Shown: in pieces, positions 2,499 to 9,317 of the stretch
Position numbering within the stretch: the first letter of the stretch is position 1
Layout: each line of letters begins with the position of its first letter
From: Candidatus Gastranaerophilales bacterium
GTDB taxonomy: Bacteria; Cyanobacteriota; Vampirovibrionia; Gastranaerophilales; Gastranaerophilaceae
Length of the DNA: 64,000 bases
Assembly (NCBI GenBank): GCA_944325065.1
Contig: CALUYS010000003.1
Coordinates: 62,001 to 126,000 of the forward strand
Reading direction: 5' to 3'
Position numbers and translations under genes: made by a program
The notes under the pieces: generated by a model
Told to the model about the DNA's origin: nothing
Database searches by the model: none
Seen by the model: the letters and a program-made list of their open reading frames with translations, nothing else

Positions 2499-2954
2499 AT
2501 GGCAAATTGTGCAAGTTCAGGATTATATATGCTATTTACAGGAATAGAAGCAGCTATAATTGCTCAATTGTTAAAATTTTTTGGCTATATTCTTCTTAAT
2601 CAAAAAATAGATTGGAGAATGCTTGTGACTACAGGAGGGATGCCTTCAAGTCACAGTGCAGGTGTGGTTGGCTTAACAACGGCAGTTGCAATAGTTTGTG
2701 GTATAAATTCAGTTGAATTTGCAATATCAACAACATATGCACTAGTTGTTATGTACGATGCTGCCGGTTTAAGACGTTCTGCTGGAAAAATGGCACAGTG
2801 TTTGAATCGTATTATGGATGATATATACCAACATAATCCAATTGATGCAGGCCATAAACTCAAAGAACTATTAGGGCACACTCCGTTAGAGGTATTTTTA
2901 GGTGCTATTACAGGAATTATTATTGCCTATATAAATTTTGTTTTATTACTATAA
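2499..2954 (+). CDS. Divergent PAP2 family (DUF212) membrane protein
   Basis: A 151-residue membrane protein of the divergent PAP2/acid phosphatase-haloperoxidase-related family, common in cyanobacteria, plants and Firmicutes. The family signatures GGMPSSHSA (about residues 46-54) and YDAAGLRR (about 86-93) are intact, and there are about four hydrophobic segments. The SSHS and R residues correspond to a PAP2-like phosphatase site, so a lipid diphosphate phosphatase role is possible. Next to a prenyl diphosphate synthase this suggests isoprenoid phosphate handling, but that is inference. It starts two bases after the previous stop and ends one base before the kinase start. Confidence 0.88.
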   Translation: MANCASSGLYMLFTGIEAAIIAQLLKFFGYILLNQKIDWRMLVTTGGMPSSHSAGVVGLTTAVAIVCGINSVEFAISTTYALVVMYDAAGLRRSAGKMAQCLNRIMDDIYQHNPIDAGHKLKELLGHTPLEVFLGAITGIIIAYINFVLLL

Positions 2955-2955
2955 T

Positions 2956-4632
2956 ATGGATTATGATTTTATACAACAATTAAATATTCCTTGTGCTGTT
3001 TTTAATGAACAAAATAATATTGTTTTATTAAATGTTTGCTTTGTTGAAGAATTTGGTAGCATTAAAAATATCAATCGTTTTAAAAATAAGTTTGACTTTG
3101 ATTTTTGTGTCCTTGAACCTGAAAAAAATATTAATCTTACTCCCATTGATTTTTGTCTTATGTCAGATGAAAATTTTTTTACTATTGTTAATTATCGAAG
3201 CGAAAATACTAATTTAAAATTTTACGAATTAAATTCTTATATTAAAAATAGACAAAAAATATTAATATTTAAAAATATAACATATGAAAATAAATATCAA
3301 AAAATATATGCTAGTTTTACTAAACTTGAAAATTATAAAAATGATTTAGAACTTGAAAATAAAAAATTAAATGAACTTAAAGATAACGCTCAACTTCAAA
3401 TTTTAAAAATGAATATATTAAATCGTATTAATGATAAAATTAGAAAATCTATTGATTATAATGAAATTATCTTGTCTGCTTTAAAAGAAATACGTCCATT
3501 AATAAATGCATTTACAATTTCATTTGCAAAATTTGAAAGAAAAGGAATATTTAAAGTTACACATATTTATCCTAGAACAAAAAGTGTTTTAGCTCTTGAT
3601 GCAAAATTTATTTTATCAGATAACGAGTTTGAAAAACTTTCAAAAAGAAAATATATAACTACATTTGTATTAAAACCATTTGAAAAAAGTAATAAATTTT
3701 TTAAAAGTCCATTATTTAGAATACTTCTACCAATATTTCATCAGAAAAAATTACTTGGTATAATAATAGGTTTTTCCAAACAAAAAATTAGTTTAACAAC
3801 ACAAAATGACTTAATTTCATCACTTTCAGTTCAAATATCTCAATCTTGCGGTCTTGCTAATTTATTTGATAAAGTGAACAGTACTAATAAAGAACTTAAA
3901 AAAACTTTAAGTGAATTAAAGGAGACTCAAATTCATTTAATTAACTCAGAAAAAATGGCATCTTTAGGGCAACTTATAGCAGGTGTTGCACATGAAATAA
4001 ATACACCATTAGCTTCTATAAACTCAAATAATAATATATCTTTTAAAGTAATAAAAAATTTATTTTCAAATTATCCAAATGAAAATTATATACATAAGCT
4101 GCAATATATTAATAAACTTGATAATGAAGCAATAAAACGTATAAAAAATATTGTTATTTCATTGAAAAAATTTGTAAGACTAGATGAAGCACAACTCCAA
4201 AGTGTAAATGTTAATGATGAAATTGATTTGACTTTAGAATTATTAAATCACGAACTAAAAAATAAAATAACTATTATTAAAAATTATTCAAATGTTAAAC
4301 AAATAAAATGTTATCCAAATTTATTAAATCAGGTATTTATGAATTTAATAATAAATGCAAAACAAAGTATTAAAGGATTTGGAGAAATTGAAATTACTAC
4401 ATTTATGAATGATAATGTTCTTGAAATAATCTTTAAAGATACAGGTTGTGGTATAGCTAAAAAAAATGTAAAAAAGATATTCAATCAAGGCTTTACTACT
4501 AAACCTTATGGAGAAGGAACAGGACTGGGTCTTGCTATATGTAAAAAAATTATTGAAAAACATAATGGGAATATAACTTTTGAATCAAAAGTTAATGTGG
4601 GAACTACATTCAAAATTGAACTACCTTATTAA
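2956..4632 (+). CDS. Soluble sensor histidine kinase with GAF-like input domain
   Basis: A 558-residue kinase without membrane segments. The N-terminus (1-110) is PAS-like. A short coiled coil (about 115-150) leads to a GAF-like sensor domain (about 160-305) and a second coiled coil. The phosphoacceptor box reads LIAGVAHEINTPLAS, with the histidine at about 346. The ATPase domain shows the N box NLIINAKQS, the G1 box DTGCGIA and the loop GEGTGLGLAICKKI. This is the HisKA subfamily that carries an E-I-N after the histidine. ATG at 2956 was preferred to the upstream TTG at 2938 because it follows the previous stop directly. No response regulator lies beside it. It is the last gene of the forward run. 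Confidence 0.9.
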   Translation: MDYDFIQQLNIPCAVFNEQNNIVLLNVCFVEEFGSIKNINRFKNKFDFDFCVLEPEKNINLTPIDFCLMSDENFFTIVNYRSENTNLKFYELNSYIKNRQKILIFKNITYENKYQKIYASFTKLENYKNDLELENKKLNELKDNAQLQILKMNILNRINDKIRKSIDYNEIILSALKEIRPLINAFTISFAKFERKGIFKVTHIYPRTKSVLALDAKFILSDNEFEKLSKRKYITTFVLKPFEKSNKFFKSPLFRILLPIFHQKKLLGIIIGFSKQKISLTTQNDLISSLSVQISQSCGLANLFDKVNSTNKELKKTLSELKETQIHLINSEKMASLGQLIAGVAHEINTPLASINSNNNISFKVIKNLFSNYPNENYIHKLQYINKLDNEAIKRIKNIVISLKKFVRLDEAQLQSVNVNDEIDLTLELLNHELKNKITIIKNYSNVKQIKCYPNLLNQVFMNLIINAKQSIKGFGEIEITTFMNDNVLEIIFKDTGCGIAKKNVKKIFNQGFTTKPYGEGTGLGLAICKKIIEKHNGNITFESKVNVGTTFKIELPY

Positions 4633-4633
4633 T

Positions 4634-4988
4634 AAAAATATTAACAATTTAAAACAAAAGAAGTACGAGTATATTGATAAGTTTTAATGTCAGTAATATT
4701 TTTATTTATGTTTTGAACTTTAACGTTCATATTAACATAGAATTTTTGCATTAAAGCTATATCATTCATGCTATTTAACATTTTATTTGCATCAACTTCT
4801 TTTACTAAACTAGGATTGTCAACTTGAGCCCTTGCATATTTTTGTATTAATGCGTTATCTATAAAATCTTTTGCTTGAAATGCCATAATCATTATCCCCT
4901 ATTAAAATTTTTAACCAAATCTTTAAATATCTTTTATATATTTCTTATATACAAATAAAAACAATTAAAGAACAAAAATTGCTCATTT
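4634..4988. repeat. Direct repeat, copy A (355 bp), carrying a small gene
   Basis: This block recurs at 6521-6875 in the same orientation with an exact offset of 1887 bp. Reading the two side by side I find six differences, all transitions. Five fall in the small gene and all five are silent third-position changes. The sixth is upstream of the gene. The repeat begins two bases after the kinase stop codon and its far end forms the left arm of a hairpin. Confidence 0.95.
4641..4886 (-). CDS. Small orphan protein, copy A of a duplicated gene
   Basis: An 81-residue protein starting MAFQAKDFIDNAL and ending in TSFVLNC. It is probably cytosolic: no signal peptide or membrane segment, mixed helical character, one cysteine at the very end. 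The ATG at 4886 is nine bases from an AGGGG ribosome site; an ATG two codons upstream (4892) is too close to it. I do not recognise the family. The protein is residue-for-residue identical to the copy at 6528-6773, while the DNA differs at five silent positions. That pattern argues for a real, selected product. No function can be assigned. Confidence 0.8.
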   Translation of the reverse strand: MAFQAKDFIDNALIQKYARAQVDNPSLVKEVDANKMLNSMNDIALMQKFYVNMNVKVQNINKNITDIKTYQYTRTSFVLNC

Positions 4989-5003
4989 AAAGCAATTTTT
5001 GTT
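4971..5003 (-). terminator. Hairpin downstream of the 268-residue orphan gene
   Basis: A perfect 13-bp inverted repeat (4971-4983 with 4991-5003, seven-base loop), T-rich after the stem in the reverse direction. It lies just past the stop of the gene at 5038-5844. The left arm belongs to repeat copy A, so the hairpin straddles the repeat boundary and is absent at copy B. Confidence 0.6.
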
Positions 5004-5037
5004 AAAAAATATTAATATTTATTATAAAATTTTATTT

Positions 5038-5844
5038 TTAATTTTTATTTAATACCTTTTTTGTATCAGTAAAAAAACTCTTAAAATTTTCCTGTAGTTC
5101 AGGGTTATTTTTTACTTCTTCAGGTATATAATTTATTATGATATTATTAATATATTGATTGCATTTTGCACTATCTTGTTTATATTTATTACCATGATTT
5201 TGAAGCTCTTTTAATGCTCTCATAGTATATGATAATTTATTGTACTTATTTTTAGTAAAATATGCATATTTTAAATAAGCCATAGATAATTTTTTACAAT
5301 TATCAAATGTTGGTTCACATTGATATTGCTTATTAAGAACTAAATGTTCTTCAAGACGCTTAGATATTTCATCATTTTGTTTTTGTATAGCTAAAAGATC
5401 TATAGTACTTATTCTTTGCATATAAAAAGAATTCATATAAGGCATTTCTTTTGCGACTTGTTTTCCTAAATCCATTTTTTGATCTAAAATAACATAATAA
5501 TCTGCATCTTTTCTATATATTAATCTTTGTTTACCTTGAAGCAGATCAGTTGAAAAACCTTGGTCTTCATTTTGCGATGAAATCCATGTAAGATTTACTT
5601 TAACTCCATAAAAACTTTTTTTTACATCTTTAGGATCTGTGAATTTTATTACATTTTCTATATCTATTTCCTTATTATCTTTCATAGCTTTAAAAGATTT
5701 TGGTCCTAGTAATTTAATTTCTACATTACGTTTTTTGTAATCATTTAACTTATTAATAATATATTTATATGCATTAGATTGATGAAATTTTGTAGTTTCT
5801 CTTCCTAAGGTTTGAAATGTTATACCATTTGAAATAGCATGCAT
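5038..5844 (-). CDS. Orphan hypothetical protein, 268 residues
   Basis: I do not recognise this protein. It has no signal peptide or membrane segment and is rich in lysine, asparagine and glutamine. Residues 1-130 look alpha/beta, with a GVKVNLTWIS strand. Residues 150-268 look helical, with TPR-like spacing of aromatic and leucine residues (for example LSMAYLKYAYFTKNK). A strong ribosome site (AAAGGAGA) supports the ATG at 5844. The leader contains NGITFQ (residues 6-11), resembling a short motif in several other orphan proteins of this window. It lies with maf between the two copies of the 355-bp repeat. Confidence 0.75.
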   Translation of the reverse strand: MHAISNGITFQTLGRETTKFHQSNAYKYIINKLNDYKKRNVEIKLLGPKSFKAMKDNKEIDIENVIKFTDPKDVKKSFYGVKVNLTWISSQNEDQGFSTDLLQGKQRLIYRKDADYYVILDQKMDLGKQVAKEMPYMNSFYMQRISTIDLLAIQKQNDEISKRLEEHLVLNKQYQCEPTFDNCKKLSMAYLKYAYFTKNKYNKLSYTMRALKELQNHGNKYKQDSAKCNQYINNIIINYIPEEVKNNPELQENFKSFFTDTKKVLNKN

Positions 5845-5917
5845 ATTTAATCTCCTTTGTATTTATTACACTTATAGTGTAGTATAAAATAAAAAAAAGT
5901 CAAGCATTTCAAATATT

Positions 5918-6502
5918 TTATAAATAAATATTAAATTTTTTTAAATAAGTTATAAAATTTTCTTTAGGGAAACCAACAACATTTGAAAAACTACCTTCAA
6001 TTTTTTGAACAAAACCATCTGGGAATTCTTGGATACCATATGCTCCAGCTTTGTCATAGGGTTTAAAATTTAAAATATAATTTTTAATTTGCTTGTCATT
6101 TAATTCATTAAAATATACATTTGTTGTTGAAGAATAAGTTATATATTTATTATTTTCTGTTTCATAAATACAAACGGAGGTAACAACTTGGTGCTTTTTA
6201 TTTGATAATGACTTTAAAATATTAATAGCATTTTGATAATTCTTTGGTTTTAAAAGAATTTTTTTATCATTCACAACAACTGTATCAGCAGAAATAATTA
6301 TAGATTTATTTTTTACTTGGTTTATAACGTTTTTAGCTTTATTAAAAGCTATATATTCAATTTTATTGTAGGAGAAAATATCATTTTCATTGACTGGTTC
6401 ATCATAATTTGAGGGAATAATTTTAAAATCTATATTAAAACTTTTTAATATTTCTTTTCTTCTTGGAGAATTTGAAGCAAGTATAATTTCCTTAGTACTC
6501 AT
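5918..6502 (-). CDS. maf: Maf-type nucleoside triphosphate pyrophosphatase
   Basis: Maf proteins hydrolyse dTTP, UTP or modified nucleotides to monophosphates and are linked to house-cleaning and division arrest. The signature is complete: LASNSPRRKEIL (residues 8-19), the ISADTVVV segment with the catalytic aspartate (about 69-76), and DKAGAYGIQ (about 150-158). Length (194 residues) is normal. The gene starts 19 bp from repeat copy B and so is inside the interval bounded by the two direct repeats. Recombination between them would delete maf and its orphan neighbour. Confidence 0.95.
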   Translation of the reverse strand: MSTKEIILASNSPRRKEILKSFNIDFKIIPSNYDEPVNENDIFSYNKIEYIAFNKAKNVINQVKNKSIIISADTVVVNDKKILLKPKNYQNAINILKSLSNKKHQVVTSVCIYETENNKYITYSSTTNVYFNELNDKQIKNYILNFKPYDKAGAYGIQEFPDGFVQKIEGSFSNVVGFPKENFITYLKKFNIYL

Positions 6503-6520
6503 AAATTAATTATATTACAA

Positions 6521-6875
6521 AAAAATATTAACAGTTCAAAACAAAAGAAGTACGAGTATATTGATAAGTTTTGATGTCAGTAATGTTTTTATTTATGTTT
6601 TGAACTTTAACGTTCATATTAACATAGAATTTTTGCATTAAAGCTATATCATTCATGCTATTTAACATTTTATTTGCATCAACTTCTTTTACTAAACTAG
6701 GATTGTCAACTTGAGCCCTTGCATATTTTTGTATTAATGCGTTGTCTATAAAATCTTTTGCTTGAAATGCCATAATCATTATCCCCTATTAAAATTTTTA
6801 ACCAAATCTTTAAATATTTTTTATATATTTCTTATATACAAATAAAAACAATTAAAGAACAAAAATTGCTCATTT
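6521..6875. repeat. Direct repeat, copy B (355 bp), carrying a small gene
   Basis: Partner of the block at 4634-4988, same orientation. Homology starts at an AAAAATATTAAC string and ends at GCTCATTT, after which the flanks are unrelated. There are no inverted termini or transposase, so this looks like a segmental duplication rather than an insertion sequence. Confidence 0.95.
6528..6773 (-). CDS. Small orphan protein, copy B of a duplicated gene
   Basis: It encodes exactly the same 81 residues as the gene at 4641-4886. All DNA differences inside the coding region are silent third-base transitions. It shares the same AGGGG ribosome site and start context. The upstream (right) flank leads into the 225-bp region before the SLH gene, which is divergently transcribed, so this copy may use a different promoter from copy A. 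Function unknown. Confidence 0.8.
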   Translation of the reverse strand: MAFQAKDFIDNALIQKYARAQVDNPSLVKEVDANKMLNSMNDIALMQKFYVNMNVKVQNINKNITDIKTYQYTRTSFVLNC

Positions 6876-7100: not shown

Positions 7101-9317
7101 ATGACAATTAACAAAATGACACTTGCTGCTGCTTTAAGTATTGGTCTTTTAGCAAGTAGCGTATCAATTAGTGCAGCAACAATTGATGATATAACAGGAA
7201 TGAATTTAGCTGCTTGTCCTATATCTGGATGTAAAACTAAAGTAACACCACATAATGCAAAATGTCCAAAATGTATGCAACCTAAGGAAAATTGCAATTG
7301 TAATCCTTGTGAATGTGATCCATGTGGAGCAGCTGCACCTTGTGATCCTTGTGTAAAACCTTGTGATGAGCCGTGTGATCCATGTTCAAAAAAGAAGAAA
7401 AAATGTGATCCTTGTGAATGTGACCCCTGTGGAGCAGCTCCTGCACCATGTGATTGCCCTCCAATGGCAAATTGTCCAGATAATGGTGATCCAACTTGTG
7501 CTGTATGTCCAAATACTTCAAATTTAAGTAATTCACAACGTCAACAAATTTATGCTTATCCATATGCTGTATATGGTGGAAATAATGTAGTTGGTGAATA
7601 TAATAATGGTATTGCAATAAACGAATCACCATATACACCTTGTCCAAGTTGTGCAACAAGTCATATACCTTGTGAAAATGCTTTAAGTGCTTGTACAGAT
7701 GGTGTTCCTATCGCAAGATCTGAATGTGACCCTTGTGGAGCAGCTCCTTGTAATACATGTGATCCTTGTGCTACAAAATCAAATACATCTTTCAGTTGGT
7801 TGAATCCTTTTAATAAAAGTAATAATGATTGCTCAACAGGAAAAGCTTGTCAAATACCAGTAGTAACAAATACATGTAATTCTTGTGGATGTGGAGTCCC
7901 TGTAGTGGAAAATAACTGTGGATGTCCTATACAAATACAAACTCAAACTAGCATGGATGTTTGTAAGAAGACATTAGAACCTTTTACAATGTCTCAAACA
8001 GGTGCTGCAGCTCCATTAATGAGTGTATTCCCTGATGTACCACAAGGATATTGGGCTGGATGCGAAATTAATAGATTAGCTGAAAATGATATAATTGTAG
8101 GCTATCCAGATAGAACATTTAAACCTTCACTTCCTGTATCACGTGCTGAATTAGCTTCAATGACTATTAAAGGGTTCAACTTGAATGATAATATGACTTG
8201 CCCTCAAACTCATTTTAAAGATGTACCTAAAAATCATTGGGCTAACAAGATTATTAATAAAGCAGTTGCTAATGGTCTAATGTGTGGATATCCAAACAAC
8301 ATGTTTAAGCCAAACGAAACTGTTTCTCGTGCTGAAGCATTAACTATCTTAGCAAAAGGTATAAATTGTGAAATGACAGATTGTCAAGCTCGTGAAATTT
8401 TAAGTCAATATTGTGATGGTGATAATGTTCCATCTTGGGCTACTATTGGTGTTGCTAAATCACTTCAAGCAGGTGTATTGGCAAATTCGCCACAACCTAA
8501 AAATATTAATCCAAATAACGATGCAAGTCGTGCTGATATAGCTTCAATGTTACAATCAGTTCGTGTAGCTATCGGTTATGATACTCAAGACAAAGTAACT
8601 TTGAATGATGGATGTCCTTGTGAAAATAGTAAAGCTTATGTTGAGAAAGAAACCACTGTAAAAGTTCCTACACTTCAACTATGCTTTAATGATGAAATAA
8701 GTGCAAAACATGCCAATATTGGCGACAGATTTGCTGCTCGTACTATTGATGCTGTGACAATTGATGGACAATGTTTCCCAGCTGGTTCTGTTGTACACGG
8801 TGTTGTAACTGAAGTTATTCGTCCTACAATGAAATGTAAGGGTGGATTAAAATTAAGCTTTAAAGATATACAAAATGGTAAATGTAAAGTTAATTTACCA
8901 AATCAAATTATAGTAGCTCAAGTTAACTCAATGAAACGTCCTAATTTCTTTGCAAAACTTGTTGAAGCTCCATTTACTTGGACAGGTGGTATTTTAGGTA
9001 ACGTTGGACGTACTGTTGGTGGTGCTATTGTTAATGCAAGTAATGCTGTTGAATCAGTATTTGACGGTGTTGGTGTAGGTACCGGTGAAATATTTCAAGG
9101 TCAACTTGGTGCAGCTGGAAGAAGTTATGCTGATGCTATTAAAAATACAGTTAAGGCACCAATTGATGTAACTCGTACAGCTTTAAGTGGTACTATGGGA
9201 TTATTCGGATATACAGCTGATGAAATTACTTATCTTGTTGATAAAAATGGTATGAGAGTTTCTTCAGTTAATCCAAAAGAACAAGTTACTATTTCTTTTG
9301 GTTGTAACGAACAATAA
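7101..9317 (+). CDS. Cysteine-rich S-layer-homology (SLH) envelope protein
   Basis: A 738-residue exported protein. A signal peptide occupies about residues 1-27 (hydrophobic core LAAALSIGLLAS, cleavage after an A-rich stretch). Residues 36-290 hold about 40 cysteines, including repeated CECDPCGAA units and CDPC tetrads. Two good SLH domains follow (about 308-360 and 370-422, each with FxDVPxxxWA, a GYPxxxFKP turn and VSRAE) and a degenerate third (about 443-490). The C-terminal region (530-738) includes FPAGSVVHGVV, a beta-rich pattern. SLH domains bind pyruvylated cell-wall polymer, so the protein should anchor to the wall beneath or across the outer membrane. The ribosome site GGAGGAAAG is strong, suggesting high expression, and a perfect hairpin terminator follows. 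Confidence 0.9.
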   Translation: MTINKMTLAAALSIGLLASSVSISAATIDDITGMNLAACPISGCKTKVTPHNAKCPKCMQPKENCNCNPCECDPCGAAAPCDPCVKPCDEPCDPCSKKKKKCDPCECDPCGAAPAPCDCPPMANCPDNGDPTCAVCPNTSNLSNSQRQQIYAYPYAVYGGNNVVGEYNNGIAINESPYTPCPSCATSHIPCENALSACTDGVPIARSECDPCGAAPCNTCDPCATKSNTSFSWLNPFNKSNNDCSTGKACQIPVVTNTCNSCGCGVPVVENNCGCPIQIQTQTSMDVCKKTLEPFTMSQTGAAAPLMSVFPDVPQGYWAGCEINRLAENDIIVGYPDRTFKPSLPVSRAELASMTIKGFNLNDNMTCPQTHFKDVPKNHWANKIINKAVANGLMCGYPNNMFKPNETVSRAEALTILAKGINCEMTDCQAREILSQYCDGDNVPSWATIGVAKSLQAGVLANSPQPKNINPNNDASRADIASMLQSVRVAIGYDTQDKVTLNDGCPCENSKAYVEKETTVKVPTLQLCFNDEISAKHANIGDRFAARTIDAVTIDGQCFPAGSVVHGVVTEVIRPTMKCKGGLKLSFKDIQNGKCKVNLPNQIIVAQVNSMKRPNFFAKLVEAPFTWTGGILGNVGRTVGGAIVNASNAVESVFDGVGVGTGEIFQGQLGAAGRSYADAIKNTVKAPIDVTRTALSGTMGLFGYTADEITYLVDKNGMRVSSVNPKEQVTISFGCNEQ

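Follow-up and report, generated by a model that had tools for sequence, protein, structure and literature searches.

A small gene duplicated on either side of maf in a Gastranaerophilales genome: a probable old duplication with gene conversion, and a possible export context

Two copies of a gene for an 81-residue protein flank maf in the genome studied here, and their likeness very probably reflects gene conversion between the members of an old duplication, combined with purifying selection, so that copies stay close within a genome and diverge from one species to the next. Judged from sequence comparison, this history is well supported, the function of the protein is a lead, and a link to flagellum-type export machinery is suggestive. 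As a whole, the explanation that joins an old duplication, conversion and selection to a role as an export accessory seems to us reasonably probable.

The repeat pair and its surroundings

The window, i.e., the whole stretch of 64,000 nt that was analyzed (C3:62001-126000), comes from a 1.86-Mb genome (G000) that is 98% complete. Positions 4634-4933 and 6521-6820 are direct repeats with 98% identity across 300 nt. By alignment, the likeness runs on to about 4984 and 6871, giving ~350 bp per repeat, and on the other side it ends a few bases past the small-gene stop codon. On the minus strand, each repeat holds a gene for the same 81-residue protein. The mechanical ORF list gives 83 aa from the first ATG; 81 aa is the correct length, because relatives conserve the second ATG as the start. 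The features are as follows.

4641-4886, minus strand: copy B of the small gene (81 aa), adjacent to the histidine kinase gene; the extra copy relative to one-copy genera, where the gene lies upstream of maf
6528-6773, minus strand: copy A of the small gene (81 aa), immediately upstream of maf, a position common to many relatives; holds all five derived silent changes
4887-4984, minus strand: upstream region of copy B, homologous to that of copy A, with a Shine-Dalgarno-like AGGGG and a promoter-like stretch
6774-6871, minus strand: upstream region of copy A, homologous to that of copy B
4933-4962, minus strand: 30-bp promoter-like element of copy B, from a pattern search of G000 and its sister genome G001
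6820-6849, minus strand: 30-bp promoter-like element of copy A, from the same pattern search of G000 and G001
5918-6502, minus strand: maf gene for a Maf-like protein (PF02545, E 2.4e-54)
5038-5844, minus strand: orphan gene (268 aa) lying between copy B and maf; without a Pfam match, and lacking in the sister species
2938-4632, plus strand: histidine kinase gene, convergent neighbor of copy B, at a junction shared with the sister species
7101-9317, plus strand: gene for an SLH-domain protein, divergent neighbor of copy A, at a junction shared with the sister species

The layout agrees with an earlier note on this DNA, which had described two direct repeats carrying one gene with silent differences only and enclosing an orphan gene together with maf. 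Codon comparison of copy A with copy B gives five coding differences (GAT/GAC, AAT/AAC, ATT/ATC, TTA/TTG and AAT/AAC), all of them silent third-base transitions. The probability that five of five transitions would be silent without coding constraint is about 0.003. The same note had taken these silent changes as strong evidence of either purifying selection or gene conversion; for the pair alone we would call the evidence modest, and it becomes strong once relatives are added. Rooted with the sister species G001, the comparison assigns all five changes to copy A, the one on the maf side, and each is from A/T to G/C, a curious direction in a window with a GC content of 27%.

Each repeat would constitute a complete small transcription unit, with ~100 bp of promoter-like DNA and a ribosome-binding site, the gene, and an end just past the stop codon. 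The 30-bp upstream element occurs at three sites in G000 and three in G001, at both small genes and one further place in each, and a reversed control pattern gave zero matches in these two genomes. In both genomes of the genus, the third site adjoins the beginning of a conserved gene encoding a protein of ~99 aa. The 268-aa orphan was found in one of the 59 genomes searched, namely G000 itself.

Duplication, probable gene conversion and selection

In G001, the only other genome of the genus (g1) examined, the order is SLH gene, small gene, maf, small gene, histidine kinase; the orphan is absent. Recombination between the direct repeats might delete the interval they enclose, as the earlier note had proposed; both genomes of the genus examined retain maf. 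The two G001 copies differ by 1 silent base and no replacement, and they pair with a support of 100 in a codon tree built from the g1, g24 and g29 copies only. Between G000 and G001, by contrast, the small genes have diverged to a dS of 0.72-1.21 and a dN of 0.06. The resulting dN/dS of 0.05-0.08 is approximate because dS lies at 0.7-1.2. As both junctions are common to G000 and G001, the most economical history is a single duplication, with conversion acting afterwards in each lineage. The duplication thus appears to be older than the split of the two species, with conversion having homogenized the copies since. The earlier note had offered purifying selection and gene conversion as alternatives; the comparison points to both.

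We propose that the gene's ancestral position was probably upstream of maf and that the common ancestor of the genus acquired a duplicate of the unit across maf, next to the histidine kinase gene. From then on, recurrent gene conversion would have replaced the sequence of one copy by that of its twin, and purifying selection would have purged replacement changes.

In genus g24 the gene exists in a second form, which occupies two loci, X and Y, on different contigs. Flank comparison places G208, G233, G248, G288, G310 and G227 at locus X, and G208, G227, G233, G248 and G288 at locus Y. Both loci are present in five genomes, and in four of the five the copies pair by genome (support 82 in G208, 96 in G233, 99 in G227 and 100 in G288), the exception being G248. 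The G024 copies, whose contigs break off 14 bp ahead of the gene and which stand outside the comparison of X and Y, also pair by genome with a support of 100. In g29, copies p and q group by locus rather than by genome in the codon tree. Conversion in this family therefore does not appear to be universal, G248 and g29 being the contrasting cases.

Codon counts within genomes fall into two groups. Six pairs encode identical proteins, with silent and replacement differences of 5 and 0 (G000), 1 and 0 (G001), 4 and 0 (G024), 6 and 0 (G208), 15 and 0 (G233) and 0 and 0 (G288), summing to 31 silent changes and no replacement. Two further pairs fit this group, namely a 33-codon fragment pair in G034 (1 and 0) and a 57-codon short-form pair in G286 (6 and 0). 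Replacement differences are found in G227 (15.5 and 7.5), G248 (34.7 and 46.3), G029 (30.6 and 28.4) and G213 (38.9 and 34.1), and the tandem or near pairs of G004, G023, G028 and G272 are diverged too. These counts omit pairs in which one copy scores below 50 bits unless both score below 30 bits, a cut-off that excludes the standard-versus-fusion pair of G112 as well as standard-versus-short pairs in six genomes (G026, G304, G314, G324, G034 and G286). We do not claim selection for identity as such from the zero replacements, since saturated dS makes the expected number too uncertain.

Other histories account for parts of these data. If each species had duplicated the gene recently and on its own, or had lost and re-copied it, the copies would also be alike within a genome. 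Such a history would, however, need repeated hits at the same two sites, given that the SLH and histidine kinase junctions are identical in both species and that the g24 loci keep their own flanks in several species; we regard it as quite improbable. Purifying selection alone fits the 31-to-0 count and the low dN/dS between species, but it is contradicted by the silent sites, which are likewise alike within a genome: selection on the protein cannot keep these sites and ~90 bp of upstream DNA alike within genomes while both diverge between species. That selection acted without conversion is accordingly a very poor prospect. Least probable of all is an assembly artefact or a mobile element. Some copies elsewhere do lie at contig ends (G024 and G034), as repeats do, yet the two window copies are on a single contig, have unique flanks and are not identical, the sister genome has the same layout, and searches of phage, plasmid and viral-contig collections gave no match.

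An old duplication maintained by conversion and selection also resembles published cases. Passages of Wang and Chen (2018, PMC6053082) describe long-lasting recurrent concerted evolution of duplicated prokaryotic genes such as tuf, psbA/psbD, amoCAB and fla, mostly enzymes, EF-Tu, flagellin and photosystem proteins, and call long-lasting cases among bacterial protein-coding genes rare. Going by those passages, the small gene shares with these cases within-genome copies closer than orthologs, conserved neighborhoods for each copy and homogenized silent sites. Paralogs are closer than orthologs in G000, G001, G024, G208, G233, G288 and G227, and are not in G248, G029 and G213. Synteny is conserved for each copy, with both g1 junctions in both genomes and loci X and Y in g24. 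Within-genome dS is 0-0.39 in the seven pairing genomes and ranges from 0.7 to saturated between species. Where the published definition sets at least five species, six are resolved here by synteny (G000, G001, G208, G233, G288 and G227), from two genera of one family. By the standards of PMC6053082, the small-gene family would qualify as a case of recurrent concerted evolution. Unlike the published cases, the family is absent from the 19 bacterial genes in Table 1 of that paper, and its protein is undescribed and confined to one order in our sample. Concerted evolution of a tiny undescribed protein in two genera, with linked and unlinked copies, suggests that it probably matters to the cells.

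The protein family and the maf neighborhood

The 81-residue protein has relatives in 43 of the 59 genomes searched, including 34 of the 36 from the same taxonomic family, which together with the dN/dS against the sister species indicates a gene under purifying selection. Stops and frameshifts in relatives, which the earlier note had named as the sign that would speak against such a gene, were for the most part not what we found: among the 54 matches listed, three contain a stop (G014, G044 and G028). A profile search of 292 genomes of the phylum returned 129 positives, 128 from the same family and 1 from the same order, and no family member in five listed genomes from another family of the class. 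Within the genomes sampled, the small-gene family thus appears confined to one order. Many of the named loci carry record labels of Candidatus Gastranaerophilales or Melainabacteria metagenome assemblies and others that of an uncultured bacterium; the few labeled Clostridia or Acinetobacter we take for mislabeling. Judged by these relatives, the window would come from the same order.

The 81-residue product is a real protein of a previously undescribed helical family. Scans of 24 family members against Pfam, NCBIfam and PHROGs gave inconsistent hits with a best E of 0.0089 or weaker, and a PDB sequence search with the small protein returned nothing consistent. Two AlphaFold models, of moderate confidence (pLDDT 76.7 and 78.7), show a short helix of ~20 residues and a long helix of ~45-48 residues; a fold search of the PDB with both gave no usable match. 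A narrow literature search on Gastranaerophilales small proteins and on Melainabacteria flagella and type III secretion found no description of the family, which is no proof of absence. Short forms of 54-58 aa belong to the same family (L169, L171, L173, L175, L180, L181 and L203), and the two short-form copies of G286 encode the same peptide except for the last residue.

The position of the small gene next to maf raises the possibility that its product is a functional partner of Maf, a nucleotide pyrophosphatase, encoded in one operon, and that the duplication around maf mirrors this partnership. Like other genes of the maf neighborhood, the small gene often lies directly upstream of maf in one direction: maf follows downstream on the same strand within 1 kb at 20 of 28 loci from the relatives search and, among 80 named loci, at 34 of the 77 that offered room for the check, with a median gap of 62 bp in both sets. 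Nine best-hit loci, all with maf, form a biased set and are excluded from the total. About half of the named loci differ in this respect, however, with no maf there in 43 of the 77 named and 8 of the 28 relatives' loci. An operon partner would be expected to adjoin maf constantly, and the combined figure is 54 of 105 loci with room. Away from maf, the small gene stands alone, e.g., convergent with a SIS-domain gene, and many loci are such convergent single genes. In the stretches read, maf does not adjoin the second copies of g24 and g29, and copy B, located downstream of maf, forms a unit that has an upstream region to itself. Maf is a frequent neighbor, not a fixed partner, and we consider a functional partnership unlikely.

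Other neighbors recur as well. Among 117 loci screened, a SIS-domain gene adjoins the small gene in 26, ferritin in 6 and FtsZ in 6, while apt lies ~0.6-0.7 kb downstream in 7 and flhB ~1.25 kb downstream in 6. We note that the names apt, ferritin, FtsZ, SIS-domain, fliQ and fliR are our reading of the sequences without a family search, and that neighboring ORFs were chosen longest-first, which may hide overlapping genes.

Flagellum-type export machinery as a possible context

Some loci place the small gene beside export or basal-body genes. At locus X of g24 it follows an flhA-like gene (flhA2), with fliH upstream; at locus Y in G233 and G227 it adjoins the fliP operon, with two small genes between, and at locus Y of G248 there is no fliP within the stretch fetched. 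In G233 the two copies encode identical proteins, and one lies beside each of two putative export systems. G033, which has no standard gene, carries a 54-aa relative just before motA-motB. Such neighbors were seen in g24, in G033 and in the group with the order small gene, maf, apt, flhB; most loci have other neighbors, and the window copies lie ~32 kb from the nearest export operon located. The export context concerns a minority of loci.

Fusion proteins of ~285 aa in g8 (G112, G171 and G306) and in G024 of g24 join the N-terminal motif of the family to the FlhA cytoplasmic region, which Pfam recognizes as FHIPEP (E 2.6e-20 in g8 and 1.6e-27 in g24). One profile, A3, included two g8 fusions; for independence we used A1 and A2, which were built without any fusion. 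The motif is short, and these profiles gave low scores, namely 23.8 (A1, two weak stretches summed) and 21.3 bits (A2) for G024 and 19.1 (A1) and 18.7 bits (A2) for G112, with a best single stretch of 16.7-18.4 bits in the fusions. Relatives of the 285-aa protein at an E of 1e-30 or better occur in 15 of 288 genomes; four have a clear N-terminal motif, G327 is marginal, and the other ten have none by the same search. A second match, between the long helix of the family and the FlhA domain of L195, was not significant (4.1 bits). We also considered a likeness of the N-terminal motif to the CheY-binding peptide of FliM and dropped it, as the one FliM found among the loci examined gave no basis for it.

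By our sorting on scores and lengths, FliP falls into two classes, with FliP-1 in 16 of the 36 family genomes and FliP-2 in 57 of the 59 genomes. The small gene does not track FliP-1, because all 20 family genomes without FliP-1 keep it. FlhB presence was rejected as a discriminator, being found in 58 of the 59 genomes, with or without the small gene.

On this evidence, some link between the small protein and the export machine is possible, and we put it slightly short of an even chance. Most likely, the protein would assist the flagellum-type export and basal-body machinery of the order as a small accessory. The more exact role, in which the conserved N-terminal helix docks near the FlhA cytoplasmic domain, is tentative and considerably less probable, and the two identical copies may provide dosage or subunit uniformity. 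Similarly speculative, and no more probable, is the view of the family as a lineage-specific part of a flagellum-derived export machine, kept by gut Gastranaerophilales even where the FliP-1 apparatus is missing, whose copies would be identical because both systems use one shared homomeric structure or adaptor.

In general description, the protein would resemble the flagellar or type III export accessory proteins FliJ/SctO, FliE and the needle protein SctF. Like these export accessories it is small and helical, lies beside export genes in some genomes and has a fusion to an FlhA domain; it differs in that the family has no consistent Pfam or NCBIfam match to any of them.

If the FlhA link holds, it would give partial flagellar gene sets a job. 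In the parts of Soo et al. (2014, PMC4040986) that treat flagella, complete gene sets are reported for three of nine Gastranaerophilales genomes and subsets for the rest, and partial sets were read as unable to make a flagellum. A termite-gut species is described as probably motile in a passage of PMC5877343.

Two flagellum-type export systems seem to coexist in Gastranaerophilales genomes, many of which have FlhA and FlhB in pairs (L183, L184, L202 and L212). G007, without FliP-1, still has FliE, FliF and a rod-like and a C-ring-like gene. By row count, 53 of the 59 genomes encode a protein of ~495 aa in which an FlhA cytoplasmic domain is combined with a non-FlhA N-terminus, e.g., at L200:2845-4335 (G000:C20).
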